Origin: Styela clava
Lineage: Eukaryota; Chordata; Ascidiacea; Stolidobranchia; Styelidae
DNA length: 64,000 nucleotides
Direction of reading: 5' to 3'
Assembly (NCBI RefSeq): GCF_964204865.1
Contig: NC_135259.1
Location: forward strand, 17,804,974-17,868,973
The notes under the pieces were generated by a model. That model was given only the letters and a program-made list of their open reading frames with translations. It was not told where the DNA came from and made no database searches. Below, piece after piece: positions 27,097 through 64,000 of this stretch. Numbering within the stretch: the stretch's first letter is position 1; each line of letters begins with the position of its first letter. A program made the position numbers and the translations under genes.

Positions 27097-29836
27097 GGGA
27101 TGGGACAAGATTCGGATCCGGACTCGGATTCGAGTCGAATCCATGCATTTTTGCGACTCGGATTCGATTTCGAGTCCACGCCATTTTTACCGAGTCCCTA
27201 TTCAATTTTGTTTTACATAATTGACGCCTCCATTATGCGATTTTACCGTTATAAAAGTCAGTATAAGCAATATTTTTACAAAATAATGTGATTCGTCACG
27301 TGAGAGATCTCTAAAAACATACGCACATATTGTAACACAGGGGCTTATCAGACATTTCAGTCATTTCGTCGCTAGTGACCATATCCCAATAAAAACATCA
27401 AGGCTACTTTTGGTGCGCGAACCAATAAATTACTCTTCGTAAACAAAACAGATAGGAGAGCATCCCCAAGGAAAAATTTATTAACACGTTTTAATTACAG
27501 TTTATTGCATGCAATTTGCTTCTTGAAAAATAAGAAAGCAAGAAAAATTTGCTAAAAGCAACGAAATTATGTGTGCTACTTGCGAAATAACAGTTTTATA
27601 GCTAATAGCATCTAAAATCATGCAAGCGTATTGTAGTCAAAATTGAGTTTCTTTAGATTGACATGCAAGAATGTTAAAATTTCGACGTTTTTTGGTTTCA
27701 GACGGTTACGTAACGGCGACGTTACAACGCCAGCTGTGCTAAAAAGACGCTCAGAATTGACGGAAGTAGGCGGGCATGAAAGCAAGCTTACGGCTAGAGC
27801 GAACATCGCCTGGCATTCATTTCTGTATTGTGGCCAAAAAACAAGTGGAGACTTGTGCCTTTTAAGAGTAGGTGCAGCAAGATATTGCCTGACAGCAGTT
27901 ACAATATCAGCATCCATATCCACCTGTTCCCTGACAAGACCCGCGTTCTCAGGTGCACCGAAGACCACACTATCTTCGGCCTCTTCTGATGATGATGATT
28001 GATATAATTCAGTCCCTTCGTAGAGTTCAACACTATCCGTGGCAAACTTCTTCACTTCAGTAACAAGCAGCCGTTCGATTTCTTGCCGATTGATAGTTGA
28101 GCACCATGACAACTTTAATCTTGGATCAAGTATTGTAGCCAATAAACAACGGTTATATGAGGCCTGGTTCTGAAAGTATGCGTCTCGGGTCTGAGGTCCA
28201 TTTCCAGGAACGCTAAATCTCCGTTTTATACCACTTTTGAGGCTATTCAGAAAATTGTCGAGTCCATAAATATCGCTGTCACCAATGAATGCTTCCAATC
28301 TTTTCAACAAATTCTCTTTTACTGGTAGAATGCTTGCTATTGTCGCCTCCTCAGTACAAACTTCCTTGGTCGCTATGTCAAATAACTTCAAAACTCGAAT
28401 TAAAGATGAAGCCATTCTCCACTGGTTAGGTGACAGAGTATTACCAATTCCCCTGAAGGACATATCATTAATAACTTCTCTCTGTTCCACCATTCGCTCC
28501 AGCGCGTAGTATGTAGAGTTCCATCTGGTACTCACGTCTTGTTGCAATTTATGTTCTGGTGCATTCAGCCTTTTCTGACATTCCCTGAGAGCACGAGCGT
28601 CGCGAGATGAGCGGTTATAGTGGGCAATTATAGAACGGGCATCAGCCACGATATCTTTCACATCAATGTTTGATCTGATAGCGTCGTGAACGATCAAGTT
28701 CAAAGTGTGTGCCATACATCGGATATTGAAAATCTCCCCGTCCTTTAATGCCTTTATCACATCCGAGGCATTGTCGGATGTTATTGTAGCAAACGATACG
28801 CCTCACTCACTTTCTTGTCTTCGTATTTCTGACAGCAGCAATTCTACGGTTTGCGAGCCCACGAGCTCAGAACAGGAAAGAACGGGCGTAACACGGTGTA
28901 AATCACCCTTGTTCCAGATAAGAAAATTGGAGGTTATACTCATGAACGAATCATTTTGAAGACTTGTCCATTCATCTGTTGTAGCCCATATGGGTCCAAC
29001 GGCACTTTTCAACAATTCCTTGATCTTATTTGTCACTTTATCATGTATTCCTGGAACAACGGTGTTGGAAAAATATTTTCGAGACGGAATAGTGTACCTA
29101 GCATTCAGTTCTTTCACAAGCCGCAAAAACCCCACATTTTCCACCATCGAATACGGCATAAAATCTAGAGCAATCATCTCGCCAATTTTGGATGTTAAGC
29201 ATCGAGAAACGGGGTGTGAATTGTCATACAATTTACGTTTTGACAAGGCTTCGACAATGGTGGGTTGGCGACTGCTGCATTCTGCAGCAGCAGTACTTTC
29301 GACGTTGACTCTCTTAGATCCATCTGGTTTTTCGAAAACCTGATGGCAAGTTGACAAGTGCTTAAGCATTGAACTCGTTGTATAAGAAGATTTGCATTTC
29401 CCACGACTAATTTTAGTTGCGCAAATGCCACATTCGGCCTTCGAACAGTCATCTTCACAAATTTTAAAATACTGCCACGCAAGTGACTTTGTATTCGGTG
29501 ATGACATCGCAACAGACAACCAGCAGAAGCGGAAACCTTCTTGAAGTAAAGTTGCCAAAAGCAAGCTAATTCCACCCGTAAATCTTATCAAAAACAATCA
29601 ACCTTGAGTAGCTTATTATACAATCATCCAAAAGATTCACGCAATTAGTCGGTAACTGAGCTGTACGCGAAGCATGGCAAGAAAACAGTACGTCACCGAT
29701 CGCGCATTGTTGCGTCACAATTGAAACCGTGTTTTTGCCGTTTTCATTGTGACGTCACGGACTCGGCGGATTCGACTCGAGTCCATGACCTATTACTCGG
29801 ATTCGCCGAATCTCTGTAATGCCGGACTCGTCCCCA
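27097..29836 (-). mobile_element. hAT transposon with one in-frame stop
   Basis: The transposase reads on the minus strand from 29597 to 27618. Its start encodes a BED-type zinc finger (CGICATKISRGK, then HLSTCH). Downstream come ITSDNASDVIKAL, CMAHTLNLIVHDAI, DVSTRWNSTYYALERM, VFWPQYRNECQAMFALAVSLLSCPPTSVNSERLFSTAG and a C-terminal dimerisation-like RNRLKPKNVEILTFLHVN. A single TGA (28803-28805) interrupts an otherwise open frame, at a place where hAT transposases often carry Trp-Gly, so a nonsense change of TGG is likely. Terminal sequences GGGATGGGACAAGATTCGG and inverted TGGGGACGAGTCC, with gactcgg-rich subterminal repeats, mark the ends. The right end abuts another repeat, so the target-site duplication is unclear. 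Confidence 0.85.
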
Positions 29837-35474: not shown

Positions 35475-36730
35475 CTGTGGAATAACTAGATGAGATGTGT
35501 AAAAAAACTTTTAAACATATAAAAACTCATTTTCCTATTTTTCAATGCCAGAACAGAGAACAAGCTGCTTATGTGGGAAGTACCATGAACTGAAAATTGT
35601 TGACGTTTCATAAAGCAATCCAGGTATTTTTCACAAGGATATACTTTAAATATAGCTTAGTGAAAATAGTTTTCGTTCAATCTCCTCCTAATCAGTGCCG
35701 ATGCCGTCTTCATATTGATTTTGAATATCCGTATTTTCATAATCATTTTGATTGTTCGCAGGAGTCATTGGAGCATCTATTAAAAATGTTTTGTTCCAGT
35801 TTAACAAACGGTTCACAATGTCCATTATTCTGACTCAGGCTACCAATAAAGTTTGAACACCAAAACTTGAAATGTGTAAATTTCTTTCATTATCTGTTAA
35901 TAATGCTTATTTATTTGTCATTATTGGGGAAAAATTTTGCTCAGTATTTGTTGTTGTACAACTATTAAATTCTTTATTATTACTGCTACAATGCTTATAT
36001 ATGCACACATAAAGTAATGAAGCTGTACCAAAGTGTAAATGTGCCCCTCTCACATGATACTAGCTGAGGAACCATTGAAGTTTGAGAGAGGGTTGAAGCG
36101 TACGAAAATATGTTATGAAAAAAGTCTAACGAAAAAGGATGGGAACCGCTGAATTAACCTCTTACCTGTCTCCATACTGATCAAGTTTAGTAAAAGGTCA
36201 GAGTTAACGGTTCATCATGTGATAAAGGTTTGGTGTATTTGGTTTTCAGAATTAAACTAAACTAAATCAAATGATTAGCGCAATATCAGTTACGCAAAAC
36301 AGCGCAAAAATATTTCTTTGAGCACTACTAATTGAGTATGATAAATAATCACTAAATGTTTAGGAATTTTATTACCATTTAGTAAGATTTTAATTATTAC
36401 CAAGATTATTACCAAGATTTTAATGCAACGATCTGACCAAATCGACCTCTACAATCACGCTACAATAACATACATGGGCCTCATAAGTTTAAGAGTTGCC
36501 AAATCTTCAAATATGTCAAAAAGGACATAGTGTTACCTGTTTGTGGCATTCGGTTATTCAATTCTTGTCTTGAGTGATATTTGGAGGAATTGCGTTTCAG
36601 GAAAAAATTGTCTTTTGAACCTTCACTCGTCACCAGTATTTGCTGAAAAAATCAAACAATTTAATTTCCAAGATTACTAATATGACAGTATACTCAGAGG
36701 CTTGAGATGCGTTGTCTATCCTTTTAAATG
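35475..36730. other. Intergenic downstream of the FN3-NACHT gene
   Basis: No exon recognised. It holds the far 3' flank of the gene that ends at 36949. Confidence 0.4.
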
Positions 36731-36948: not shown

Positions 36949-38555
36949 CTAAACTACAGTGGAAGTTATAGCAGAATATTTAACACCTACTTCGCCGTTT
37001 GGGTTGTCTCTGATTGCATTGTCTATTGTTAATGTTTTTGTTGCATCATTACAGGTGTACTTCACTTTCACATTGGAGCAGAATTTATTTGGTAGCTGTC
37101 TCAAAAACTCAGCTGCTTTATCCACTTCATCAGTTGTGCTTTTGTCCGTAATTTCAATTTTCTTTTTGCACATTTGCAGAAGTTGATCATCGTTAAGTTC
37201 ATTGCAGATTGAAAACCAGTTCAAAGTTATTTGTGGTTCAATGTGAATTTGTTTCAAGATATTTGCAATATTATCTTTGATGAATTTCTTAATAACCTCC
37301 CGTTTATTGGAAACTTCTTTCTCATCAATTACTATTTCAGCTGGTTCGAATATTTGCTTTGCCGTTTTCATTGTTTCTTCTCTTAAAAATCCAGCAATCA
37401 TTATCCATATGTTTGCAAATGAGCCAAACTTCAAAGATTTTTTTTTCAATCTTTTTTTTAAATCGTCCACTTTGCAAAAAAAGGCAAAATACATGGCAAT
37501 AGTAAAGAAATTCTGCAAGTTGTCACAGTTGATTGAAGATTTTACATTGACAATGGAGTTTTTTTCATACTCCAAGAATGAGAGACCACCACTGTTTAAG
37601 GACGATTCCATGACAGATGTTGCAACTTGTGATTGGCTGCTTGACCTGCGTTCATTTTTTTTTACTTTCTCCGGATTAATATTAGCGGCTTCATTTCTTT
37701 TTGGTACATTATTAATTTTCTGACACAAATAATTGATTTTGTCTTTCCTTTGAACCAATGGATATCTGTTCAATTTCTCAAGGAAAAGTTGAACGACTAC
37801 GGAAGAGAATGAGTCAGGATCTGCATTGATTTTATTATTCTTTATCCAGTACAAAATGCTTTCACAGAATCCTGGGTTTGCACAAAAATATCGGAAAACA
37901 TTAGAAAGATCAATGATATCGCTTTTCTTTCCCAAAATGTTTTTCATCATATTCATGATTCCAGTATCATCAAATCCCTCAATATTTATAGACAGTGTGG
38001 GTTTCAAAAACTGTTTCCTCGGATCATGTGATGTAGAGCAGAATACTTGGGACTTGGAGAATTGTCGATTAGTGACAAAAAAATTATAAAAAATTTCATT
38101 CGGTAGTCCCTCAGTTTCATAAAGAAAATACTGGAGCTTGAATTCAGGTGATAAGTGGAAATTGTCAACAATGAATACAACTTGGTTAGAGTTATTCTTT
38201 ATCCAATGAAAAACAATATCCATTTCCTCTTTGGACAAATCAGTCATGTACACATGCAGTATTGATTTTACATTGAATTTTGTTTTGAGTGTTTCCACTT
38301 CTTCGTAATTCAAAAAAATTGTCAGTTTTGTATTGGGTACACATTCCAAGAAATAGCTACAACATGCAGTTTTGCCTGTGAAATTCTCTCCAATAATCAT
38401 TACTGTATCTCCTTCTTTAATTTGAGTTGCCTGCAATTTAAGGTCTTCAATGACATCACCGCTAGGAACTTTAATGAGCTTTGGTGTAACGAATGTACTT
38501 TCATTTAGAAGCTTTTTAGCCATTTGTTTGAACTTTTGTTGCAGAAGAAGGATAA
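36949..38555 (-). other. NACHT/STAND-like NTPase exon
   Basis: One exon, about 535 aa (residues about 1260-1794), entered in phase 1 from the last FN3 exon. Counting from the internal Met at 38523: Walker A GENFTGKT at 45-52; Walker B VVFIVD at 115-120, followed by NFH without the second acidic residue usual in NACHT; a sensor-like QVFCSTSHDPRK at 159-170 in the place of the NACHT TSRP; a GFDDTGI-type element; and YFCANPGFCESILYWI, which resembles the NLR NP-L-x-C helix. A Ser-rich linker (ERRSSSQSQVATS) follows, then helices NIWIMIAGFL and NWFSICNELNDDQLLQMCKKK that recall the NLR HD2 region. There is no LRR after them. The assignment to NACHT rests on motif order, not on a profile search. 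Confidence 0.7.
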
Positions 38556-41500
38556 CTGTAAAATAGATTAATGTATATATAACATGTGTATATAAAAGAT
38601 AAATGACTGCAATGACTTATTCATGTATAACACAAAACTAGTTTTTACTAGAAATGAGTCTGGTCTTACAGGGATACATGTAACAGACAGTAAAGTTGCC
38701 CAGATATTGAGAGTTCAGAAATAATAGTAATACATGCACAACGGTTATAAAAAAACAAACAATATTCATATCTTTACAGACAAACTATATCAGGTCAAAA
38801 GATGGAGATGAAAAGTCTTCGATTAAATTTTATCTATATGGTGATTCGAAATGCTGGTTAAACTGTATGATTCGCTTATCAATAGTTGCACACATATTAC
38901 CAGAAAGAAGCCTAAAAAATCCCAACCCTATACGAATATTCCACAGAGGAGTATTTTTAAGAGTATTAAAGGCTGAAAATACAGTCTGAGTGCATTAAAT
39001 AAAAGCGATTTTGAGAAGTGAAAAGGGTTGAGATAAAAACAAATTGGTCAAATACATCTGTGATTTTTATAGTGTCTGTGTTATGAATTGTATTCAAATT
39101 GCTCCAAGAAACTATGGCTGGCTTAACTGTTATGTTTAATTTTTTTTAAATTCAAACAGCATTCCAATTTTGGTCTGATATCTAGATTAGGTCATCACAT
39201 TTTGTATTTTATCGGCTGCTGAAAAAAGAGTTTAACATCATAGAAATAAACATGGTCATGGAAATAAACATTGTACACCAAATAGCTTACCTTGTCTAAA
39301 CTTCAGCACATCTGATAAATTGCTTTCTCCAGCGGCATTGTAAGACTGCACAGTTACTTCTAAATCAACCAGGTCTTCACATTGCAATGTATACATAGGC
39401 ATTTTAGTATTATAACTCTTATTGTTGATTTTGAAAATATATCCGTCTGCACCTTCGCAGAATTTGCATGATAAATTGACCTCTTGGGTTGAAAGTATTT
39501 GTTGTTGAAGATCAGTTGGAACAGCAGGTACTGAAAAAAGTGATGAAAATGGGTTAAATAAGTTTTTAACATATTGTAAAGTTGTTATTGTCACTATGTT
39601 TTTTATTTAGATCCTATTCTATATTAAGTTGTAATTGAACCAGTAAGGTCATATAACAATATTTCAATGCTATAAAATATTACAATATTATTAAAATAAT
39701 ATTCTAAATCATAGAAAGTCAATCCAATAGCAATGTGAATACTATGAATACAAAGTGAATGTTTCAAAAATATAAATATAATATAAAATGAGTTGTTCTT
39801 ATATTTTTATAATTTAAACTTCTGCCTACCTGTGAAAAACTGTACCATGGGGGACTTTGCGCTCCCACCACTATCATTACTTGCTGTGACGTAGACTTCA
39901 TATTTTTTCCCAGGTTCCAAGTTTTCCAAAATAAATTCGTCTTGATAAACAATTTCTTGTTTCCAGTCTCTATGATGTTCTATTCTCCAATGGAATTCAT
40001 ATTCTGATACATTGCCTATCTCGTTCCACGTGAATTTTTGTTCTTCATGACTGATGCTCATGGTTTTAACAACCAGCGATTGTGAACCTAGAAAACAGAA
40101 ACAAGGTTATAGGATAGGAGTTTCATATTTATACCAGGAATGAAAGAAGCTGTTGGGAAAGCTTAATCATATGGCGTACCTCGGATCCTTATCAGATTAC
40201 CGGTTCCCGCTAATGTATGGAGTTAGTTGGCTATTATTTGTTTCAGATGCAACTCAATGGCCAGGGAATAGTTTGCATCAATACATCATATACTTATATT
40301 TGTATTCAAAACTCATAAAATATCTTACGTGTCCAAATCGGATCAGACATTATTTCTTCACTATTAAGTTCTTCATCTGTTTCATGAACTGAAGTCACTC
40401 CTACTTTATATTTTGTGCCTTCATGTAGTCCACTCAATTCAATAATATCTCCAGATTCTATAATTTCTTTGACTGTGCCTTCATTTAAGTTGATAAATCT
40501 GAGTTTGTATTTTGAGGTCGAAGATGCTTCTGATCCTTCAAGTCTTACAATAAGTTCAGTGGTTGGATTTTTCATGCTGTTCTCCACCTGTACACTTTCC
40601 ACTGGGTGAAGTGCTGCAATATAAAGATTGTAAATTTGGTATAAATATAACTTTTGAGGTGCAAAAGATAAACAAAAAATCGGAGTCAAACAAATAAAAT
40701 TATCAGTCACTTTAATAGAAGTAATAAAATCACTCATAAAGTGATGGCTGATGGATACAATTTTAGTGGTTCCTAAAATTGTTAGATCCAGGTGACCGTT
40801 GATAGATATTTAAAGCATATTTGGTAAAAACCTAATAGCATCGTGGTATTTGTTCCGATCTGAACATTTATCAAGTACGGAAAAAGGATACTTCTGCAGA
40901 TTCATAATTTAGGCCTTGAACTATATCGATAATTCAAAGTTTGCGACCACCTCAGAAAATCCATGCTACAGTTAAAAAAAAATCCGTTTCTGCGGATGCT
41001 AGGTTGACTATCTCCTAGTTGAAGTGGAAATAAATCCTTATTTAAATTGCAGTCTGACACAATTTTTAAATATGTGTGATGATCAGGTTTAGATTAGTCA
41101 GTTTAACACTTTGTAAGTTATTTTCATTATTTTATCTTATCGTGATAGCTGGGCATGTTTGACATTGCTTTAAGTAAAATACGTCTTAAAAATTACCTTG
41201 CATTTCCTTTTTCAAGTTGCATAAATAATATTGTTCAAAAGTACATGTGTATACACCTACCTAGGTCCCAAAGCATTGTCAAAATTTTTACTGACCTGTT
41301 TTAAATGCGAGTGTGTCTGATTCTTCTCCGACACCGCCAGAATTCAATGCTGTTACTGATACACTGTATTGACAATTGAGTTCTAAATCTTTGAAATGAA
41401 TGTTATTATCAGTTGTGGATTGTGTGACTGGTGCAATTCCATTTTTCTTCAGCTGTATATTGTATGAAGTTGCTCCTGGAACCTTATTCCATGTAATAAT

Positions 41501-44500
41501 TTGTGAACTTGTTGAATCTTTATGTGCTTGAATTTTGGGTATTTTGCAAGGACCTGAATACAACACAAAAATATATAAAATTTAATTCCGCTTTTAATTT
41601 ATGTTATCAATTTATCACATACTTTTATGTATTTGTATTTTGAAATCTTATTTTTGGAAAAATAAATTTATTATTTCGAAATCAGTCAATATTAGCATAA
41701 TCGATCATCATTTTGATAAAATCCTTTGAATTAAGCTATTTAACAACTTTAACTAATTCTAAATCTGAACCATTGAACAAGGGCGAGATTTGTACCCCTT
41801 TAACAATGACGTAACCCAAACATTGGTACATCATGTATTTATTCGTGTAAATGAGAATGATTACCTATACCAGGAGACGGCAAAAATTTTTAGTATAAGA
41901 GCCGCATGCAGCAAGTCGGAAATATGTGAGAGCCGCATAATTTTTGAAATTAATAATATTAGATTATCGTGAACTGAAATGAAATTTACACAAACGTATA
42001 ATAACAATTTTGCAAACTATCTTATATATATTCTTCAATCGCTTAATGAATTTGAAAAAAATGTTACGTTCTAGTTTCTCTTAGTCAAATTTGGATAGTA
42101 TATAATTATTGCCAGTGAAAAGAGCCGCATAAAAACTCCGGCAGACCGCGGTTTGCCCACCGTTGACCTATACCATTTTTGGAAATTATAAGTGTTGATC
42201 TCAACTTTTCAATATAATATAAAAATATAGTAACATTTCAAATGCCACGCAAATTTTATATTCTTCCCACTTTGCTGTTGTGCACTTTAAATTAAATAGG
42301 TTTTATCAGGTTATGGCCAGTCAACTAAGAGTTTATACAGTATAAAACTGACAGTTTACTTTAATTCTCATTTTTAAAATCATATCACCAATTGTATCTG
42401 TTTTAGGTAGATATCTGGTATCTATTTTGTCCTTAAACAACATACTTACATGTCCATATCTTTGTAGAGGAAACTTTTTCACTATTTAGTTTTTCATCTG
42501 CCTTATACACAGACCATGCTTGAACAAGATATTGAACACCAGGTGTAAGGCCACATATTGTGGTCATACAAAAATCTGTGTCAATTTTCTGAATTTCACT
42601 TCTATGTTGTCGCGAAACTGCAATTGCTCTTGCTTGATAGAATGATGGCTTGTTTTGGGGTTCAATTAATGTGCAGTTAATGGATGTACTCGGCCTGTCC
42701 GGATTGTTAGTAACTTCTAAACCTGCAGGAGGCATCATTCCTAAAGAAAAAACGTATTGAGTTTGCTTAAACGGATTTTGCATAATTATTACCTGAATAT
42801 TCCATATCATCAAATGTCTAATAAAACAGTTTACTCACACAGCCTCTCATCCAGTTACCTATTCGAGTCAAGTAGGCTATTCAGTAGCTCTCCCGATATT
42901 AACTTTTCTGTATTCAAACTTCCCCTAATTATTCATGAGTATAGGAAGAAATGAGGGTTGACCCCCTCCCCCCTTTTCAAATGTAAAAAAATGAAAAGGA
43001 TTTTTTGTATGTATTATACATTGTTTAGACCCTCGGGAATCTTGACCTCCGATTGGGCCCGCTAGCTGTTGCAGCCAAACTGTGTAATTTTAATTTTCAG
43101 ACCCTTCATTCGAAAATTCGTGTTTACACCCAAGCATATGTAGAAATCTGGGTACTCACTCCTGTTGTATGCGAACCAAGATAGCAGACACCGGATCGTA
43201 GTATGTGTACCAAGTTAGGGTTAGTATTTGTACCTGAAATTATGACATGACCTGGTACACATAATACGATTCGGTGTCCGCCATCTTGGTTCACATACTA
43301 CCGAAGTACGGAAATCTGTAGTTTACAAATGGCTTCATCAACGGAACTCATTAAGAGCAAACATTTCTTACCTGTTTTGAATTCAACAGGTTCTGATTCT
43401 TGTCCTGCACCCGCGCCATTGACTGCTGTAACATGGGCAATGTGTAGCATTCCAAGTTGCAAGTTTGGTATAGTTTTATAACATACTGCTGTGTCAATTA
43501 CAGTAAAATTTCCATCAACTGGTTTATAACTTAACTTGTATGCGATTGCTGATGGTATGAGATTCCATTTCAATGTAAATGTGTCCAAAGTAATGTATGC
43601 TGCTTCCAATCCATGAACTTTTGGGCAGTCTGTCATAAATATGTATGATAAATTTTTGGCGGGTCACGTTATTAATTTCCTTACAGTATAGTAACAGAAA
43701 ACTCAGACAAATGAGTCTGACAGTACATTTGACACGAATTAAATAATGATTGTTATATGCTGTTAAGAATGAGTAGTGTTTAGCTCTCTAAGAAACATCA
43801 GTTGACATAATGTCCAAGCTTAGAGAAAACGCCTAACATTGCAAGAGATTTATTATCAAAAAGCAACACTATTATAAACATATTCCAAAAAAAATGTTAA
43901 CATTAATACCACTGAATGATTATTATTGCTTTGTGCAGGTCGATGTGCAGGACGGATAAAAGTCATCTAGGCTTCCGACCGTTGTGTGCATTTTGTGTAT
44001 TCAATTATTGGCGCTCCCGTAGTATGTGAAACAAGATGGCGGACACCGGAACGTAGTATGTGTACCAGGTTAGGTCATAAGTTTATTCCAATTTTCCTTA
44101 TTTTAGTTTATTTACGAGTTCGGTGACTAGCCAAGTGACTCCCGTAGTGTACCTGAAATTAAAGCCTAACACCAACCTGGTACACATACTACATTCCAAT
44201 GTTTTCCATATTGATTTACATAGCACAGAACTACCCAATCATTATGAGGATGTACAGTTGAAAAGATATAATACAATAGGTACTGCCGTAGTGTGTGTAC
44301 CAGGTTAGGAATGGCCATAATTTTGTTCCGATTATCTGGTACACATACTTCTGGAGCGCCATAAAACCATCTATTACGTTGTCACTAAGGTTGAAATTTG
44401 GGGCCTGAATTTGTATTTTAAAAATCTACTACTCACAATTTTCTAGGACTAGCAAAGTTTTTTAAAAAAAAAAAAGTATTTGAGGAGCTTATTTAGATAC

Positions 44501-47500
44501 AAAGTATTATTAAGTACACACAAACGTTTTATTATAGACGACAAAACAATAGGTAGAACCAATTAAGGTTTGTATAACAATCATTTCAGGAATTAAAACC
44601 TGTTTTTATGGCACACTTGTTTATCGAGTAGAAAACTTCTTTTGTCAATCTGCAATGGAATAAATAGAAAGAACTTACAAGTCCATATTTTGTCAGATAG
44701 GGTGAGTGTACTATTCCTCTTTTGACTATCGGAGATAGATCTGACAGAAGCTCTGTACTCGCAACTTGGTTTGAGATCATAGAACTCATAAGAACATTTT
44801 TTTGTTTTTCCTGGAATGGGATGATTTGTTGCAACTTCTATCAAGTCAATTTCATATTCTATAGCGCCGTCGCATCCTTTCCAAGAGACTAGGATTCCAG
44901 ATTCTTTATGATGAGGACTGTTGCTAGTTTTCAAATCTTCTGGTGGCGAAAGAGCTAAAAAGAAAATTTCAAATTATGTTAATATACCAAAAACCTCATC
45001 ATTACTTGATGAAAAAAGCTCAACGTTCTAATAATAATGATGTGCAGGAGGATTAAATGACTCCTTGCCACCAAAAAAATTTCACCTTCACGCTGGCTGG
45101 TTACAACTTCCTCCACCAAAAGGTTCATGATTTTCAAACAAATAAATGTCTAACTATTCTCATGGACTGGTAACTGGACAGAAAGCTTTGGTTTGCCATA
45201 TGAATGAAACTTTTTCCCACAAATTAAATATAAAAATTTTATTCCATCATTAGTTCAATAATGTTTTTAGAATATGGAGTACGGGTGAATTTATTTGTTT
45301 CAAAAAATAGCATCACAGCTAATTAATAATTGAACAAATCAAAGAAAATTTAAATCAAACAAAACCAAAGTACATTATCAGCAGAACTAACTTTTGTCAT
45401 ACCTGTCATAAAATGAACTGGCTTGGATATTTTACCCAAACCTCCTACATTGACCGCCATGACTGTAACGGAGCACCTTTTGTTCAGGGTAAGATTTGTC
45501 AGAGTAATTTCTGGCACATTTCTCTTGTGTTCGACAGAATTTCCATCTTTTTCCACGAAAATACAATACGACTCTGCTCCTTCCACATCATCCCAGTATA
45601 CTCTTTCCGAATTCCCTGTAAGGGCTTCACTTTTCACGTTTTTCACAGTTCCAGGTCCTGTTGTGAAAGTATATGTTTCTCTTATGTCACAACTTCTAAT
45701 TTTGTTCAATACACGATGCATAATTCGGTTACAGCTTTCTTTAACAAATATAGTATTGAATTAGTTTGCTGATGTTATACTTCCAGGCTGACAAATAACC
45801 AAGAAACTCATCATATATGTGCTCATTTGTGTTAATCAAGTCCATGCATCTAAAATGAATAGCTGGTTACTCAATTCCATACCATGGACCTGTAACTGAA
45901 TGTGAAGTCATAGTATGCCAAAAAATCAAGCCGCTCTATTGTCTTTCATCGCCCAGAGACAAAAAGGAAAAGCTTACTGTATGAACATATCCTACTGTGC
46001 CATTTTTGGGGCCAAATAACAAAATTTGTAATGAATAAGTTTAAATCAGTGCATATCTAATCCAAAGTACTGATTCAACATTTTTTTTGTGTAAATATAC
46101 ATATGCAGGCAATTTTGGCAAGATTAGAAAAATCTTTATAATGTGAAATTATTTTCCACAGGATGCAAATATTTGAGTGATTAACGGGTAAATGTAGTAC
46201 ATCACTGAAGCTTAGTGATAATTTCTAATGAAAGTGAAGTAAAAGTAGACAAGACAAATAACTTACGTATCCAAATAGGTTCGGCATAAACTTTCTTGCT
46301 TTCAACTCCATTCGTTCCAACAGCTTGAACAGAAACTGTGTAACAATGGCCTTCGTGCAGATTTGAGAATAGCGTTTGACATGATTCTTCTTCTTTTGTT
46401 TGAGAATCACCAGAGTCTGATTTTGCAGTGATCACATATTTACCAATTTTTTGATCTGAACCAGTGTATTTGACTTCCAAGAAAACATCATTCCCAGTGC
46501 AAATTGCACTCCTGTAAATATGTCTGGGAGGCAATAAATCTGGAATGACAAAGATTTTTATAAAAAGAGGAGTATATAAAGATGAGTTCATCAAAAGTGG
46601 CAATCTATACTGGTTTATGTCAAGCAGTAACTGACAATTTATCATTCCAGTTGAGCAAATGTAAAAAATGAAGGAATCTTTAACTTCATAAATATGAAGT
46701 TCGAATTTACAACCTATAACACAAAGAGCAAACATTTTTTTAATAGATAGGAAAAAAATCGACGTTGTTAGGTCTTGTAAATTTTGTTTTCTAGAGACAT
46801 TGTATGTGGGAAAAGATTAAATTACAATTTAGCATCTAGTTCTTATATACTCTTTAAAATAATATTTGGCAACTTTGGTTCATGCAAAAGAGAACCACCA
46901 CAACAAAATGAGTTGTGGGAAAGGAACAGATCAATCGAAATGTTATGTTATAAACGCTACATAACAGCATTGTTGCCAGCAGCAGCAAATCAGTAAACTA
47001 CATTAGTTTTTTAGATTGAATGAAGGCCAGTCTTATAATAAATTTTTATCAGTGAAAAGTTGGTAAGTTTTTCTGCATTAATATGTGACTTGAAGAAAAA
47101 CCAACATGGTCACCTTGTGAAGCATGCATTGGTCAGTGGTTCACTATTACTGACCTGATGTGAGGAGTAATTACCAAATGATGGTAGAAACTAATAGCTG
47201 CGTCAATACAGCCGAACATTTGTTTAAAATATATGAGTTTCACAGTCCAGAATGGCTGTTATCAGTAATTTGATTTGAGTCGATGTTAGAAAATTACTGA
47301 TCCTAGCACACTTAAGCCTTTAGACTTACCAGTGGTGAAAATCTCTGGTTCTGATAATTCACTTATCCCTGATGAATTTTCTGCGGCAACACAGACTTTA
47401 TAAGTTTGACCACCATCTAGATTCGAAAGTGTGAGCTCTGTGTCTAATGTTCGAATTGTTTCATAATTGCCATCACATCTTTTCTTCTTAACTAAGTATG

Positions 47501-50500
47501 CATTTGCTCCAAATGCAGGCTTCCAGCTGATGATTTGAGATGTGGGTGAAGTTTTGTCAGTTGTAAGACCTTCCACTTTTCCTGGATCTGGATCAAGAAA
47601 TTATGTGCAAGTTAGAATATTCCACTTGATAAATAATTCACTAGTTAATATTCAGTTTCAGATTTGTATTTTTTGTGTTATAGTGACGGTTATTCACAAT
47701 TTTATGGGTAATCAAGGCTGTCAAAATGAAAAAATCTGTATAATAAATATTATAACTTGAAAGTTTTTCGAATTATTTCAGCTATTTTACACCTTTGACT
47801 CAAATAAGATGCATGTAGCCATTCACATGAATAGCTCCATAAATATATTATACCACTGGAACAATAACAATGATCATGTTCATGAGATTATCTTTAAACT
47901 CTTGCTCCCTGGCCTATATCACATTATGGTAACATAATAGATAGAATAGGATTTTAGCATTCATCAAGTGGGAGAGATGAGCCAAACTCTATAACATAGC
48001 TTCATATAGCGTGATTGACCATGGTCAGTCCATTCATTCCAAGTATGAGAAATCCAACCAATATTTATTTCTGCTGAATGACCTAAGATGTCATAATGAT
48101 AAAATGGGATTTTTACATTAAACCCAGAAGAAAGCTGATAGGATTGTTTAATCATAAGGCGTAAACTGTTACCAGTGCGAGTGAAATTGTGTTTTACAAT
48201 GTGCCAACTACAAGCCTTTAGTAGAGCCATCAGTGGTGTTATGATATATGTGATGTGTTTCCAATGCTTATTACTATGACTCTGGCTGTTTTTTTTTAGA
48301 ATCCATGGAAAGTCACGCATATATATCTTACATGTTTGCATTGGATCCTTAAGCTTGCAGGATTCACTTTCAACTCCTTCCTTGGAGGCAACAACCCATA
48401 TATCATAGGTATCACCAGGTGTGAGATGTTCAATTTTTGCAAATCCTAGGTCAGCCTTGACTTTATTTATTTCTCCTGTTGTTAAGCTTCTGTAGAAAAC
48501 CTCATGTTCAATTCCTGGGAGTTGTTGATAATTAAATTTCACTATGAATGAGGTATCTGATGATTTGCGTCGAGTCTGTACAAAAAGATCAGTAGGCTTC
48601 TCCGGACCTGCAAATACAAAACACAATATAAATAATAGGCATTGACTAGAAGTTAAATTTTATACTTTGTAACATGAATGCTGTTGGAGATCTACTACAA
48701 ACTAGCAATGTTTCACCTCATAAAAACAGCCTTAGATGGACATCTCAAACATGATAAAAGGACAGAAAATTTTTGCGCTCGTCTCACTAATAAATATATG
48801 TGGGTTTGCAGGAGCACAGTCAGAAATTAAAGTGCTTCATGTAACCACTTATCAAAGAATACTTTTTTCAACTTTCAAGTTCATGTATATGGAATCTTAA
48901 CATGTCTAACTTTTCTAGGTAACCAAGATAAAGCACTTGGTTACACACCTGGTTGAAAAGTCAAAACTTCCGAATATCGTCCACATTTTTCAGTATCATC
49001 CTCTGTAATGCATGCTGCTACTTGTATGTTATATCTACTGTCAGGACATAGATCATTCATTGTAAACATTGGAACTGGGCATTGTTTTTCAGAAGGTTCC
49101 TCGCCATCTATCCACCATCTCACATAGTATTTCTCACAGTCATGATCATCCCATACTATTGTTGCTCTTGTATCTTGTGGTGAATATCCTCTGAGTTCTG
49201 GCTTTTCTATTCTGTCAGGATCTGAAACATGATTTTACAGCAATTAGAAGTCTCCATATTTCTAAAGTTTGGGTTTGGCAGTAAATATTGAACTAGTATT
49301 GGGAATAAGGATGAAATGCTTTTCATAACAAACTGAATGAGATTTATTTTTCTTTTTGTATACAAATTTCTGTGTGCAAGTGTGGTGTCAAAACCTAATA
49401 TATGCTCTGTAAAAGAAATAAACTGGAATCCAAATTTGGTCAAATAATGTACCAGATTTGGTCAAATAATGTACAAAATTAGAAACAAATGCAAGTGTTC
49501 CAAGTACATGTGGTGCTATAGGTTATAAAAGTGGCGTTTCAGAATGTGTGTACCAATATGGCTCTATAACATAGCTTCATATAGAGTGATTGTCCGTGGT
49601 CAGTCCATTCATTCCAAGTATGAGAAATCCAACCATTTATTTATTCCTGCTGAATGACCTAAGATATCATAATGGTAAGATGGGATTTTCATATTAAACC
49701 CAGAAGAAAGCTGATAGGATTGTTTAATCATAAGGCGTAACCTGTTACCAGTGCGAGAGAAATTGTGTTTTACAATGTGCCAACTACAAGCCTAAGCCTT
49801 TAGTAGAGCCATCAGTGGTGTTATGATATATGTGATGTGTTTCCAATGCTTATTACTATGACTCTGACTGTTTTTTAAAATACATAGAAAGTCACGCATA
49901 TATATCTTACATGTTTGCATTGGATCCTTAAGTTTGCAGGATTCACTTTGAACTCCTTCCTTGGAGGCAACAACCCATATATCATAGATATCACCAGGAG
50001 TGAGATTTTCAATTTTTGCAAATCCTAGGTCAGCCTTGACTTTATTTATTTCTCCTGTTGTTAGGCTTCTGTAGAAAACCTCATGTTCAATTCCTGGGAG
50101 TTGTTGATAATTAAATTTCACTATGAATGAAGTATCTGATGATTTGCGTCGAGTCTGTACAAAAAGATCAGTAGGCTTCTCCGGACCTGCAAATACGAAA
50201 CACAATATAAATAATAGGCATTGACTAGAAGTTAAATTTTATACTTTGTAACATGAATGCTGTTGGAGATTTATTACAATCTAGCAATGTTTCACCTCAT
50301 AAAAAACAGCCTTAGATGGACATCTCAAACATGATAATAGAAAAGAAAATTTTTGCGCTCGTCTCACTAATATGTGGGTTTGCAGGAGCACAGTCAGAAA
50401 TTAGAGTGCTTCATGTAACCACTTATCAAAGAATACTTTTTTCAACTTTCAAGTCCATGTCTATGAAATCTTAACTTGTCTAACTTTTCTATGTAACCTA

Positions 50501-51638
50501 GATAAACCACTTGGTTGCACACCTGATTGAAAAGTCAAAACTTCCGAATATCGTCCACATTTCTCAGTATCATCCTCTGTAATGCATGCTGCTACTTGTA
50601 TGTTATATCTACTGCCAGAACATAGATCATTCATTGTAAACATTGGAACTGGGCATTGTTCTTTAGAAGGTTCCTTGCCATCTATCCACCATCTCACATA
50701 GTATTTCTCACAGTCATAATCGTCCCATACTACTGTTGCTCTTGTATCTTGTGGTGAATATCCTCTGAGTTCTGGCTTTCCTATTCTGTCAGGATCTGAA
50801 ACATGATTTTACAGTAATTAGAAGTCTCTATATTTCTAAAGTTTGGGTTTGGCAGTAAATATTGAACTTTTATTGGGAATAAGGATGCAATGCTTTTCAT
50901 AACTAACTGAATGAGATTTATTTTTCTTTTTGTATACAAATGTCTGTGTGCAAATGTGGTGTCAAAACCTAATATATGCTCTTTGAAATAAATAAACTGG
51001 AATCCAAATTTGGTCAAATAATGTACCAGATTTGGTCAAATAATGTACAAAATTAGGAAAAAATGCTAGTTTTCCAAGTACATGTAGTGCTATAGGTTAT
51101 AAAATTGGCGTTTCAGAATGTGTGTACCAATATGGTGGTACCATAACTAATTTTTTTCGCCTACTTTACATCAACTTGTGTAATAGGACTAAAAACTCTG
51201 AGCAGAGGGGATATTCACTACTTGGCTCACACAGACAGTCCCTGAACTCGTAATGGAACTGAAATGTGAAAAATCGGAATAAACCTACCGGTAACCCTGA
51301 CATGGTACACGGTACTACAGGAGTACCATAAAAGTTATTGGTGGGGGGGGGGGGGTAATTACATTTAGACATACAGCATAACAATCAATCGATTTTGCGA
51401 TTCATCGTCAAATGAGGGATTCAGAATTCTATATATTTTCATTTAATTTCTGAATATGACATTATAGTCTCTGTTTTGGTAGGTTGGTTGAGGCTTAAGC
51501 ATTAATATTGCATCAATATCTGTAATTAGAATAGTATAGCGATTCAACAGTAGACATTCGTGCAATTTTATTCAGCAATGAAAAATCAAAATATTATCAC
51601 TTTTACTCACACGTAGCAATGGGTGTTTGTTTGTCCAT
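36949..51638 (-). CDS. 14x FN3 array protein with C-terminal NACHT-like NTPase
   Basis: Exons in transcript order: 51638-51611, 50795-50523, 50186-49911, 49221-48949, 48607-48332, 47587-47330, 46539-46267, 45657-45403, 44954-44679, 43629-43372, 42740-42450, 41553-41296, 40613-40329, 40087-39830, 39530-39291, 38555-36949. Every junction is GT/AG, phase 1, and the sum (5385 nt) is divisible by three: 1794 aa. Exons 2-15 each encode one FN3 domain of 80-97 aa (W-x-Y core, PG..Y.V.V.A and a C-terminal F.TG or IWTC). Exon 16 is the NTPase. No signal peptide or membrane segment is visible, so the protein is probably cytosolic. The exon order is well supported. The 28-nt first exon (MDKQTPIAT) is the weakest part; it is chosen for its ATG, GTGAGT donor, correct phase and likeness to MDEQ in the neighbouring paralogue. 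Sensing or immune function is inference from STAND architecture. Confidence 0.75.
41871..42165. mobile_element. hAT-like element in an intron of the FN3-NACHT gene
   Basis: 295 bp, ends CAGGAGACGGCAAAAATTTT and inverted CAACGGTGGGCAAACCGCGG, with a perfect 8-bp target-site duplication ACCTATAC at 41863-41870 and 42166-42173. 'agagccgcat' words repeat inside. It lies between the eleventh and twelfth exons of FN3 type II and I. Confidence 0.8.
43150..43311. repeat. Foldback-family repeat in an intron
   Basis: Short, nearly symmetrical copy: TATGCGAACCAAGATAGCAG, ACACCGGATCGTAGTATGTG, then inverted CCTGGTACACATAATACGAT, TCGGTGTCCGCCATCTTGG, TTCACATACTACCGAAGTAC. The loop is only about 40 nt. 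Confidence 0.75.
44012..44365. repeat. Two foldback-family copies in an intron
   Basis: Copy 1 starts GCTCCCGTAGTATGTGAAAC, AAGATGGCGGACACCGG and closes with CCTGGTACACATACTACATT near 44200. A second partial copy starts CTGCCGTAGTGTGTGTACC (44282) and ends CATACTTCTGGAGCGCC (44360). Confidence 0.65.
47980..51135 (-). repeat. Recent tandem duplication of a two-FN3-exon unit
   Basis: Units of about 1.57 kb at 47985-49557 and 49560-51135. Each holds one type-I FN3 exon (273 nt) and one type-II FN3 exon (276 nt), with their introns also nearly identical. Both units start with 'ctctataacatagcttcatatag', and the far end is marked by 'gtgtaccaatatgg', a foldback-family end. Exon sizes and phases are unchanged, so the copy adds two domains in frame. 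Confidence 0.85.
51118..51340. repeat. Foldback-family repeat at the duplication edge
   Basis: Contains 'gtgtaccaatatggtggtac', 'cacagacagtccctgaactc' and CATGGTACACGGTACTACAG. A 13-nt G-run (about 51342-51354) follows. It sits in the first intron of the FN3-NACHT gene. Confidence 0.65.
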
Positions 51639-54271: not shown

Positions 54272-57200
54272 TTAGTTTTTGACAAAGTGAGCTTTTTGAC
54301 TTTCTAGAGTTCCATAAATAGCAACTACATAAATGTAGTAAGATTGGCCTGGTTGAAGCTCACTCAGCACTGCAGTGTGAGTTTCGGTCTCTATTGTCGC
54401 TGCTTCTTTCCCTTTTATATCATTTGCCACAATCCGATATGTCTTTTTAATCACCGTGTCAGGATCATCATACTTCACGATAAAACTCCTTGCTTTAGAT
54501 TGAGGGTTTGGTGTGACCTTGATGTTGATAGGAGCAGAGGGAACTGAAATAAAATATTCTGAATATTACCATGGCTCACCTAAACTGCATATAGCTATTC
54601 CAGATATTGAGGTAACAAAGTATCCTCTTTTAAAGTAAACGCCAAGTAGGCTGTTGGAGATAACTAAACCTAAGCATATTTCAAAATAATTTTTTTATGT
54701 CTGTATTTCGCTTGATTCTTTCATTTCATTATTCAAACAATATTTTGAAATCTATTAATCTTTATATGACTGCATATATATTAAACTTGGGTTAGGGTCG
54801 TAAGAATCATAAGATAAATATCATTTCCTTTCATCTTCATCTAATTGTCTGTTATAGTTGATGACACGGAACACGAGACTGTGCAGTAAGAGCAATTAGT
54901 AAATTATAATATCTGTGATAATCCTGATTCCAAGTTTTTTTTAATAAAATTTGGGTGCTCCCGAAGTATGTGCGCCATCTTGGTGCACATATTTCCGGAG
55001 CGCTACAATTTGTATCAAATTACCTGTAACATATTCAATTTCTGCACTTTTCTCACTTTCCCCTGCAGCGTTTAAAGCTGCCACTCTGAACTTGTAAATC
55101 GTAGATCTTTTCAATTTGTTGAAGTAGAAATAGTCCTCTTTAGTTTCAATCACTTCCTGCATGTCCCAGTTTGCTGCCCAAAATATTCTGTAATTCTTTG
55201 GTCTGATTTCGTTGTGCTTCCATGAAAGTTTCAGCCCATCATAAAATTCTTCTGTTTTTACATCTACCGGAATTTCAGGATCTATTTCGAATAAATGAAA
55301 GGTAGTGGTATAATTCTTGCTGTTTTTTATTATAGCGATGCGGTTCTATTGAGCATCTTGAACATGCATGGTATCACATTGCTAAAAGGACGGAAACGAA
55401 TTACAAAAAAATATTAAATGTGATAATTGCAGAAGTTTTCATCATTAAATAATGGTCCAAGCGAGCTTAATGACTTTTCTTTCAAGTGAGATTAAAAGAA
55501 ACAACCCATTTAGATCTATAGCCACAAAACTAATTGTCTTTTATTTTTTATGTTATACAACTTACATGTCTGAATCATTCTGGGGAAATTTGCAAAATCG
55601 CTCTTGAGATCACCAACTACTGCTGCCACTTGAATGTTATAAAATTGTCCAGGTGTAAGTCCTTCTATCAATGCAAAATTTTGCCCTTTTTTTGTTTCGA
55701 TGAGTGCTATCTCACTACCACTGATGGGCTGAACCGATACCAGATGGTCTACTTGTCTTGTATTTGCATTATCGAACTGAACCATAAGATGGTCATGAGG
55801 TGATGGTTCATAATTCATGACCTGAATATTAACAGGGCACTCTGGTCCTGAAAATGTTAAAAATTTATTTTCATTTAGAAAATTATAATGTACTTCACGT
55901 TGTTAGCAATGTTAGATGACCAGTTTAAAGATAAACTGAGCGAGGTGTATTACATAATATATGGTTTAAGTCAGCAACCCTCAAACTTTTTTTCATGCGA
56001 TGCCAAATTATCGGGGGAAATAACTGGCAAAAAAAATTACTGCCTTTAAATAAAATTCAATTTTGTGATCGTTAATATGTGTTTAATGGCTTTTGAAGTT
56101 TGTAAACATGTAGGGCTGCAGCTCACAAAATTAGTAGTATGGCTACTTATACTGTTAGGATTATATAAAGTAAACAACATAAAAATGTGGAATGGATTTA
56201 TTGATTCATATACACAGCAATATGTTAAATATTTACACCATATATTAGATATGTTTAACACAATTCTGTTAATTTTTGGGGCGCACTTAGCAAATCGCCA
56301 CGACATACTAGTGCCCCCTTTGAAAACCGTTGTTTTTTCCAATGATAATATTGTTGACAAGTTCTAACAAAGTAATTGGTAATTTATATTTATTAGCATC
56401 AGTGTCTTAATAATAAATTTTTATTTAGGTATCAGTTTAACACAATATTAATATTTTTCTCTACTGATCACAAATTAAAATTTACTAAAAATTATTTACT
56501 AACCAGTTTCGAATTTGATGATATTGGAAGGAATCGAGCAACCTGCTTTATTAATTAGAATTGCATTGACAAAATACGTGGAACCTTTCTTCAATTTTGT
56601 CAGAGGATATTGTCTTCCGTGTGCTTCAAATTCCCGCTTATCGGTTTCATCTGTCCAGCAATATAATTTATACATTTCTTCGCTGTAAAAAATGAAAGCA
56701 ATTTCTTTATTTACATGTCTGGAAAATTTAGCAGACTTTGTACATAAACGATATTAAATCAAATTAAAGTACATAAAATTTTTGCAAAATTCCTAAACAT
56801 TAACACTGCATTTTACTGTTCGATTCCAAATTTGTAACCAAAATTTAAAAAAATTATAATCTCAATATTACATTTATCGGAAAGCAGTCTTATGACAAGT
56901 TACACGAGGTTCTCATTCATTTTGTTATTTCTAGGAAACATAACAAATTGTAATCATTCATCTTACTCTTGAGATGGAGTTTCTTCCCATGTCACCCAGG
57001 CACATAATGGATCATCTTTATCCCATTCTACATTTTCTGCCAGATTCGGAGCAGAAGGATCTAAAATATAAAACCACTGGGCATTAAAAAGTATACATCA
57101 CCCGGTAAAGCCAATGTAGCTTAATCACATTTTTTAGAAATAGAGTTTTTCGATATGTTGTTATGAACCGGGGGCCATCTTCAAAACTGTACCTGTTTTA

Positions 57201-57423
57201 ATTTTGATTTTAGGTATTGCCATGTGTCTGTGTTTAGTTTTTGCTGTTAAAACCAAACTATTACAAAATTGCGATCTCAATTGCTTAAAATGTTACATAA
57301 GCTACCGGTAATTAGATTTTACCTCTCATTAAAAGATTTGTGAATCTTATTTTACTTACGAAGCACACACATTCCTCCATCTGTCATTGGTTGTTTTACA
57401 CATGCTTCATCCTGCTCGTCCAT
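54272..57423 (-). CDS. 4x FN3 protein without NTPase, paralogue
   Basis: Exons: 57423-57360, 57060-56967, 56682-56504, 55847-55566, 55281-55024, 54543-54272 (1149 nt, 382 aa). All junctions are GT/AG and all phases agree. The start is MDEQDEACVKQPMTDGG; the exon begins a little upstream, in 5'-UTR, perhaps at an acceptor-like TATAG (57438). FN3-1 is split by an extra phase-2 intron (exons 2 and 3: NVEWDKDDPLCAWVTWEE, then YKLYCWTDETD...PSNIIKFETG). FN3-2 to FN3-4 are single exons. The last ends in frame at SQKAHFVKN and stop, about where sibling domains continue to a donor. No signal peptide and no membrane segment. It could be a functional short form, a decoy for the FN3-NACHT protein, or a truncated duplicate. 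Confidence 0.7.
55973..56330. mobile_element. hAT-like element in an intron of the 4x FN3 gene
   Basis: Ends CAGCAACCCTCAAACTTTTT and inverted CAACGGTTTTCAAAGGGGGC. No target-site duplication found. Frames of about 100 aa on both strands inside it are not conserved with anything I recognise. Confidence 0.6.
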
Positions 57424-57439
57424 GCTTGGTTTTATTACT

Positions 57440-59500
57440 ATAAAACTAAATAATTAAATATATCAATCTGAAATTTCAATCAAAAATGAAACACTAATTT
57501 TACTTTCAGATTATCATAGTGAGCAAGCTGAATAATACAATCTACAAGTCTGTGAAACAGAATATGAATTTAGCAAACAATGAACATTGACCAGGTTTAC
57601 GATAGAATCAGTTAACAAATGGAATGACGGAATATACAGGGTGTCTCAAAAGTAAGTATACACTTTTAATTTTGATTTGCTTTTAAGGTACTCATCATAG
57701 AGCGTTCATTTCTTCAGAAAACATAGTATGGATAAGTAGTAAAATTTAGGTATTGTTTGCATTTTTCATCAACCCAAGTTAAATATGAGACCAGAGGGAA
57801 TTACAGAATATATATCAGCTTGGCACAGCTTCAGTATATACCAACCCAGTGTTGACAAAATAAATATTTAAGTTCATTATGCCAAAAAATTACTTTACAA
57901 AACAATTTATATTTGAAATTATAGGTATCTTATCCTAAATAATGTGTCAGGCATAAACATAGTTTACAGAAATCTTTAGAAAAAGCAGTGAAATGATGAT
58001 CTGAAAATGATAAAACATACAGTAACAATGCGATCAACAAATAATATCATTTTCAAAATTAAATATTGAAAAAAGGTAACCAAACATAAGCACTTTTTAA
58101 TAACAATTCACCTGACAACAGCAAGATATATACCAAAAGTTGAAAGAACTACATGAATGTAATTATTCTATTAAATGAATACACCATATGAACAAGCGGC
58201 ATTATCAACTTTCCTCTCTCCCAGGATAAATATGTAAATTTTATCCTATCCCATTTGTAATCTACAGTGCTGTGGCTGGGCAAATGCACAGTTGAATCTT
58301 AATAAAAATTGCAGATTCACTCAAATTGGAAACTGTACAAACATCCACAAGTAATGTTTTCTACAACAATTTTGGTTAAATTTTAAATTGGCTTTTTTTT
58401 ATTAAATGTTGGTTTTATTAGAACCCACAAGAAACAAGTACAAAGTCTCAAAAGTCAGTCTTGTCAAAATTGCATTTTTGATTTTTTAATCAGCCTCTTC
58501 GCAAATTTATTTGAAACGGTCACAAAATTTTTAGCTAAATAATCCAATTCATTGTACTAACAGGAGTTGGTGATCACAATTTTACACAAACTATTATCAC
58601 AATGCATGAATCAATAATTTCCATTCATTTTTTATATTTTGGACATATATTCCCGATTATAAGGCTGGATTTTGAATTGGCGTATTTTTATATAGGAATA
58701 GCTGTAAATGGTCTTCTGAAATAGTGGTTTTATTTAGAGCTCACAAGGAACATATCATATATAAAGTAGTATATAAAGCTACATAGTTTTCGTTGTGATA
58801 TACAATATATCCGCTGAACTGCAATTGAAGCGTTTTGCTTCAGTTGTTTCCACAGCACTTTCATTCATGTTTGCAGTTAATTCTACAGTATTATATGTAA
58901 TTCTGCAATATTTACATACCGGTACAAGTATTCAATGATTACAATTGAATATTTAGAAAAAAAAAGCATAGGCATTATTTGAGCAATGTAAATTAACATA
59001 GTACAGATATAAATAAAAAAACTTATCTTAAGCAATATTAAACTGTGATACTGTGGTAAAATACATAAGATACATCTCTGTACTGTTCATGTTGAATGCA
59101 ATATGTTGTTCCAGTGCATGATTTATGGGGTGATATTATGAAACATAATGCATCCCCTGCACATATTATAAAACTAGAATGAAAATATACATATACATGA
59201 ATATATGTTATACATATTAGGCTACATAGCGTTAACTTCAAATATTGTTCAGTAGGATTTTAATAGAATGTCCTTATACAGAAATTAATAGATGGTTCAC
59301 CAGGTGGTGCATTAGAAAAATCATCAGGGTTTAAATATAACTTTGCAACATACACATAAACATGTAAATCAATCAAATTTTCATCAAAATAAATCTTACT
59401 TGTATTAACATAAGCAGATAAAAGAATTGTAATTTCAGAGTGAATTTACGGTATATAAAATCCAATCATGCTCATTTTAAGCAATTGAAAATAATACTAA
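57440..59500. other. Region between two FN3 genes
   Basis: It should contain the promoter of the 4x FN3 gene. 58530-58860 resembles 53150-53780: 'caataatttcc', 'ggattttgaattggc', 'aatagctgtaaa', 'aatagt.gttttatttag', 'ctcacaaggaacat', 'tgtgatata'. This marks an old duplication of 3' flanks. No further exon is recognised. Confidence 0.5.
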
Positions 59501-59511
59501 ATGTAGATCTT

Positions 59512-59517
59512 TTTATT
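59512..59517 (-). promoter_or_regulatory. AATAAA overlapping the stop codon of the third FN3 gene
   Basis: The minus strand reads TTCCAATAAAAAGATC across the stop codon. If used, the 3'-UTR would be only about 20 nt, which is unusually short. A later signal is possible. Confidence 0.3.
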
Positions 59518-63945: not shown

Positions 63946-64000
63946 CTATAAAAAATAATATGTCAGATGTATTATGCATTGCTATTCAAATAATCTTCAG

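Follow-up and report, generated by a model that had tools for sequence, protein, structure and literature searches.

Does one gene of the ascidian Styela clava join a long array of fibronectin type III (FN3) domains to a NACHT-like nucleotide-binding region, and if it does, what kind of protein would it make? The question is raised by a 64,000-nucleotide stretch of contig NC_135259.1 (positions 17,804,974 to 17,868,973), called the window here, in whose numbering all coordinates are given; every exon of the gene lies on the reverse strand. In our judgement the product is probably a cytosolic protein made of 14 FN3 domains, a divergent NLR-type NACHT and a short acidic tail, that is, an FN3-armed sensor or scaffold. 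What is new is the recognition of the NACHT-like half and of relatives with a ZU5-like part; the protein itself is already public, named for its FN3 part only.

Gene structure

The window DNA spliced as 18 exons reproduces letter for letter the NCBI protein "fibronectin-like [Styela clava]" (1845 residues, P0002 in what follows); the gene model is real and equals the public annotation. The original prediction, made from the sequence alone, had proposed sixteen exons running from 51638-51611 down to 38555-36949, and these are present with 15 GT...AG introns, all of phase 1, and with the claimed single frame of 1795 codons including the stop. P0002 is identical to this 16-exon model through the residues NPNGE near the end of exon 16. 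Exons 1-15 therefore stand as proposed, and so does the point at which exon 16 starts; the 3′ end does not, as two exons were missed and the stop was misplaced. The true end of exon 16 is at 36991, with the donor GAA|gtaggt, and it is followed by exon 17 (36537-36642) and by exon 18 (35688-35776), which carries the stop codon; the proposed stop at 36949 is therefore intronic in the NCBI model. It may be noted that P0004, a record from other sources, retains the codons DVGAKYSA, similar to EVGVKYSA of the window, and a read-through form with the stop at 36949 may exist alongside the NCBI model.

The FN3 array

The array of 14 FN3 domains claimed for exons 2-15 is borne out by two profiles: Pfam fn3 matches in 12 stretches with E 4.6e-73, as a tandem array, and a profile built from these same exons recovers all 14 domains. 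Each domain has its own exon. Domains 1 to 4 lie in exons 2 (50523-50795), 3 (49911-50186), 4 (48949-49221) and 5 (48332-48607), domains 5 to 8 in exons 6 (47330-47587), 7 (46267-46539), 8 (45403-45657) and 9 (44679-44954), domains 9 to 12 in exons 10 (43372-43629), 11 (42450-42740), 12 (41296-41553) and 13 (40329-40613), and domains 13 and 14 in exons 14 (39830-40087) and 15 (39291-39530), the last of which adjoins the NACHT-like exon.

Exons 2-3 and 4-5 together with their introns form a recent tandem copy at 47987-50669 (1583 aligned bases, 94.7% identity), in which exon 4 is the copy of exon 2 and exon 5 that of exon 3. The duplicated exons differ by 12 nonsynonymous and 6 synonymous codon changes in 181 codons, too few to judge selection. 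In a FastTree phylogeny, read for its grouping with the support values left aside, domains 2, 4, 8, 10 and 12 stand apart from domains 1, 3, 5, 7, 9, 11 and 13, with domains 6 and 14 as exceptions; such alternation would be expected if units of two exons had been duplicated.

Just upstream, at 54272-63985 on the same strand, another and diverged FN3 gene seems to lie. It shows nine FN3-like frames (E 3e-10 to 4e-4) and runs off the window; its last frame stops near 54272, and no NACHT-like match was found between there and exon 1 at 51638.

A family that keeps the join

Seven S. clava records (P0001-P0007, P0002 included) share the NACHT-like region. The original prediction mentions neither this multi-copy family nor the upstream FN3 gene nor the ZU5-like end of some relatives. 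Of these, P0001, P0002, P0003, P0005 and P0006 are listed on a contig of length 22,500,630 and are probably on one chromosome. P0007 is on another contig (32,746,820), with only 27% identity in exon 16, and P0004 has no listed contig and the same locus number as P0006, so that the seven records need not be seven genes. The order FN3 then NACHT is common to P0002-P0007, and the FN3-to-NACHT junction LKF[RK]QV matches across all six. The number of FN3 domains changes among them: 14, 7, 7, 12, 9 (two overlapping) and 7 for P0002 to P0007 by the exon-derived profile. On the FastTree phylogeny the first FN3 domain of P0007 groups with that of P0002, and its last FN3 domain with the one that exon 15 encodes at the end of the P0002 array. 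As a copy of 27% identity has the same order and matching first and last FN3 domains, the layout predates the divergence of the close copies.

These data bear on whether the gene predictor joined an adjacent FN3 gene to a separate NACHT-like gene. The annotation of P0001 (603 aa) covers the NACHT-like part and lacks FN3 domains, which counts against a fused protein, and the upstream FN3 gene has its own stop and no NACHT-like exon. Against such an artefact, the intron phase remains 1 across the join, and the shared junction extends to the distant copy on the other contig. We regard two separate genes as very unlikely: the join is kept in all of P0002-P0006 and also in P0007, at 27% identity.

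The protein searches had length and word limits, by which relatives can escape detection. With the NACHT-like region as query against proteins of similar full length, the matches at E up to 1 among 6629 candidates were 5 proteins, all of S. clava. One protein search for relatives in other species gave S. clava as its sole match at E up to 0.1 (7774 candidates), and a profile of the NACHT and C-terminal parts gave, among the matches listed, six S. clava records only (E up to 1, 7998 scored candidates).

Is exon 16 a NACHT?

Exon 16 (36991-38555) holds the NACHT-like NTPase region, a low-complexity linker and HD2-like helices. The three motifs claimed for it are present: Walker A GENFTGKT (38368-38391), Walker B VVFIVD (38164-38181) and a sensor-1-like CSTSHDPR (38017-38040), the last followed by a GFDD motif. 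The Walker A pattern GxxxxGK[ST] occurs in 7 of 7 proteins, and G55, G60, K61 and T62 are invariant in the 8-row alignment, so that the P-loop is plain. The hhhhD of Walker B is likewise present, with its Asp (D130) invariant in 8 of 8 aligned rows (IALVLD in P0007). Downstream, a stretch at 37174-37467 resembles NLRC4_HD2 below the Pfam cut-off (E 0.0052, 17.7 bits, cut-off 33.1). A HLWQKI-like patch, by its sequence a candidate for the site of the conserved winged-helix His, is found in the relatives, with Tyr in the window gene.

In Pfam scans of six members, NACHT matches in 3 of 6 at E up to 1. The best NACHT match is that of P0006 (E 1.9e-4, 21.7 bits vs a cut-off of 26.7, profile positions 1-151 of 167), and P0007 follows the profile over 2-164 of 167 at E 0.023. 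The families found in the window exon are all below cut-off (NLRC4_HD2, ABC_tran, AAA-type and YqeY). With PADLOC, 2 of 6 members match mad8 (best E 6.8e-4), and NCBIfam gives weak matches only. No LRR family was found in P0002-P0007 at E up to 1, so the claimed lack of LRR holds in the Pfam scans. The precomputed Pfam list of P0002 is without PF05729 (NACHT) and includes PF28033 and PF28407, which are newer than the Pfam copy scanned here and may already describe part of P0002.

Several results weigh against a NACHT assignment or mark the domain as degenerate. Pfam NACHT has no match in the window exon, no scanned member reaches its curated cut-off, and the NLRC4_HD2 match is found in only 1 of 6 members. 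The motif table of Proell 2008 gives hhhhD[GAS]hDE as the extended Walker B consensus and T[TS]R as sensor 1. In our alignment the Walker B Asp is followed by Asn (N131) in 8 of 8 rows, the acidic pair at +3/+4 is absent from all aligned sequences, and sensor 1 reads STSHD, STSCD, STACD or TTNHR, with the Thr invariant and the Arg out of its usual place. The sensor 1 Arg is also wanting in Ipaf/NLRC4 and three NALPs according to that table. PDB sequence searches found no NLR and no ZU5 structure; we put down to chance their weak matches to HinP1I, Integrator subunit 3, a designed TIM barrel, CbiE, cathepsin H and InvE. The AlphaFold2 model from 8 sequences is of low confidence (mean pLDDT 53.5, pTM 0.46), and it superposes badly on PDB chains, at a TM of about 0.3 and an rmsd of about 20 A.

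The strand and helix order of the predicted model nevertheless looks to us like that of a P-loop NTPase with helices after it. Among the 86 PDB matches that Foldseek gave at E up to 0.001, NLR proteins come first (E 1.7e-9). In the best 50 of these 86, NLR proteins or oocyte complexes occupy ranks 1-26. NOD2 or an NLRP is named in 16 of these 26 titles; the remaining 10 belong to complexes of the oocyte lattice or the SCMC, and we take their chains to be NLRPs. In the same 50, chains of p97 appear from rank 27 and NLRC4 at rank 31. In view of the poor superposition, the NLR matches support a NACHT fold and do not prove it.

Could exon 16 belong to another class of P-loop NTPase, either AAA+ or another STAND? 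AAA_7 and ABC_tran each match weakly in 4 of 6 members, the top-scoring family for P0007 is NPHP3_N (E 9.6e-4), with AAA_14 also above NACHT, and p97 is among the fold matches. Yet NACHT is aligned over the largest share of its profile among the P-loop families listed, the NLR chains outrank AAA+ and align over about 500-620 columns vs about 225-300 for p97, and NLRC4_HD2 lies downstream in the expected order in the window exon. Another class is thus unlikely, and a divergent NLR-type NACHT is the likeliest reading of the Pfam, motif and predicted-fold evidence together. The NACHT/STAND assignment of the original prediction may be kept as NACHT-like on weak Pfam matches and predicted fold, with the qualification that the domain is degenerate and below the Pfam cut-off.

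A ZU5-like end in some relatives

In P0002 and P0005 the C-terminus is a short tail that has no ZU5-like part. P0003, P0004 and P0006 (3 of 7 records) have an additional C-terminal part of about 590 residues. A 133-residue cut-out of P0004 matches only ZU5 in Pfam (E 0.0011, 19.7 bits, cut-off 21); with the three whole C-terminal parts, ZU5 matches in 3 of 3 (best E 0.007) and DUF460, over a different stretch, also in 3 of 3 (best E 0.0029). In all three the ZU5-like stretch closes with CDHFSPY, which contains an HF/S motif. Self-cleavage is described at HF/S for PIDD, where the site follows the ZU5 domains, and at SF/S for NLRP1 and CARD8 (PMC3210808). Judged by these sequence features, some relatives appear to have a module for self-cleavage comparable to that in PIDD and NLRP1. 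UPA gave no Pfam match in this C-terminal part, a PDB profile search gave no ZU5-UPA structure, and no CARD or Death family was found as a death-fold tail in the Pfam scans. For the window gene, tblastn of the three C-terminal parts against the window found nothing (best E 0.8).

Where would the protein reside?

Exon 1 (51611-51638) holds the start codon and nine codons (MDKQTPIAT), and no signal peptide is evident in it. A simple hydropathy scan of P0002 found no hydrophobic N-terminus or membrane span, with no 19-residue window above 1.07 on the Kyte-Doolittle scale, which supports the claim that the protein has neither signal peptide nor span. The short polar first exon is alike in P0005 (MNEQTPIAT) and P0003 (MSQREIPLAT). 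The N-terminus of P0004 differs and is more hydrophobic, a point against the cytosolic reading.

Long FN3 arrays are usually extracellular, and this favours a secreted or surface protein with its array outside the cell. So does the sea cucumber AjNLRC4, an Ig and NACHT protein described as a membrane receptor (PMC8699970). The hydropathy of P0002 and the polar first exon shared with P0005 and P0003 stand against an extracellular array, which we hold to be quite unlikely; the window protein is probably cytosolic.

Comparison with known systems

Animal NLRs such as NOD2, NLRP3 and NLRC4 likewise have a P-loop NACHT-like region followed by helical domains, and they provide the top PDB fold matches. 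Unlike them, the window protein has no LRR in the Pfam scans, an FN3 array stands before the NACHT in place of CARD, PYD or Death, and the family has lost the Walker B acidic pair and has the sensor 1 Arg out of place. For an Ig-type domain with NACHT, the closest precedents that we found described are the membrane proteins AjNLRC4 and AjNLR-new of sea cucumber, also an invertebrate deuterostome (PMC8699970, PMC13133943), of which AjNLRC4 is described as having neither CARD nor LRR (PMC8699970). As far as their descriptions allow a comparison, these have transmembrane segments and Ig domains, whereas the window protein has 14 FN3 domains and no predicted span.

Similarly, the ZU5-UPA/FIIND proteins (PIDD, NLRP1, CARD8) resemble the three S. 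clava records with the ZU5-like stretch ending in CDHFSPY. The window gene, in contrast, is without that part, its relatives show no CARD or Death match, UPA is undetected in them, and their cleavage is only predicted. FN3 is reported paired with TIR in ctenophores (PMC11797021), and FIIND and ZU5-UPA are reported fused to TRADD-N proteins (PMC8195603). In the account given by one survey, ascidian NLRs are either NACHT-LRR or NACHT only (PMC11508797). Our literature search, with most subscription papers outside its scope, found no FN3-NACHT protein in tunicates.

Other features of the window

Remains of a hAT-type transposase lie at 27618-29597 on the reverse strand, where neighbouring frames match Dimer_Tnp_hAT (E 1.6e-16) and zf-BED (E 1.4e-8). 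Also on this strand, a long frame at 16092-17081 looks by eye like a fragment of a non-LTR reverse transcriptase and has no Pfam match at E up to 0.01. Short dispersed intronic repeats with GGTACACATACTACG-like cores are present at 43159-44234 and are perhaps a small mobile element. Rfam and tRNA scans of the window were empty.

Possible function and significance

If the protein is an FN3-armed sensor or scaffold, its NACHT module would comprise the nucleotide-binding domain, a helical and winged-helix-like region and HD2-like helices, and the FN3 array, with its domain number varying among relatives, would be a recognition or tethering arm. With nucleotide bound, the protein would stay closed, and a ligand or partner that engages the FN3 arm would free it to oligomerise. 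Given the degenerate Walker B and sensor 1, little hydrolysis would be expected. In the three relatives the ZU5-like stretch at the C-terminus would be self-cleaving, with the cut at HF/S, and a C-terminal fragment could thereby be freed. As the window gene is without this part, it would be a short-form sensor, scaffold or regulator. An innate-sensor or self/non-self role, as originally suggested, may be proposed for this architecture.

The same protein could be a cytosolic scaffold and no immune sensor, with FN3 domains that bind the cytoskeleton or partners and a degenerate NTPase that serves only as an oligomerisation or regulatory platform. The missing Walker B acidic pair and sensor 1 Arg would suit this, and NLRPs build oocyte cytoplasmic lattices, complexes of which are among the fold matches. 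Also, the Ig domain of sea cucumber AjNLR-new is reported to bind actin (PMC13133943). On the other side, three relatives have a ZU5-like part, which is known from cell-death and inflammasome proteins. The family is moreover multi-copy with changing domain number, as is common among recognition genes. We therefore rate a pure scaffold as somewhat unlikely.

Tentatively, and with less than even confidence, we also propose that tunicates of the Styela line evolved a class of NLR with FN3 recognition arrays before the NACHT, whose full members would have an autoproteolytic ZU5-UPA (FIIND-like) end as in NLRP1. The window gene would then be a short non-cleaving member that regulates the cleaving ones or hetero-oligomerises with them. 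Tunicates are the sister group of vertebrates. An LRR-free family with FN3 arrays at the N-terminus and some members with a ZU5-like part would show another build of the NLR-type switch, and an FN3-NACHT-ZU5 family would bear on whether the pairing of NACHT and FIIND in NLRP1 had a single or a repeated origin.

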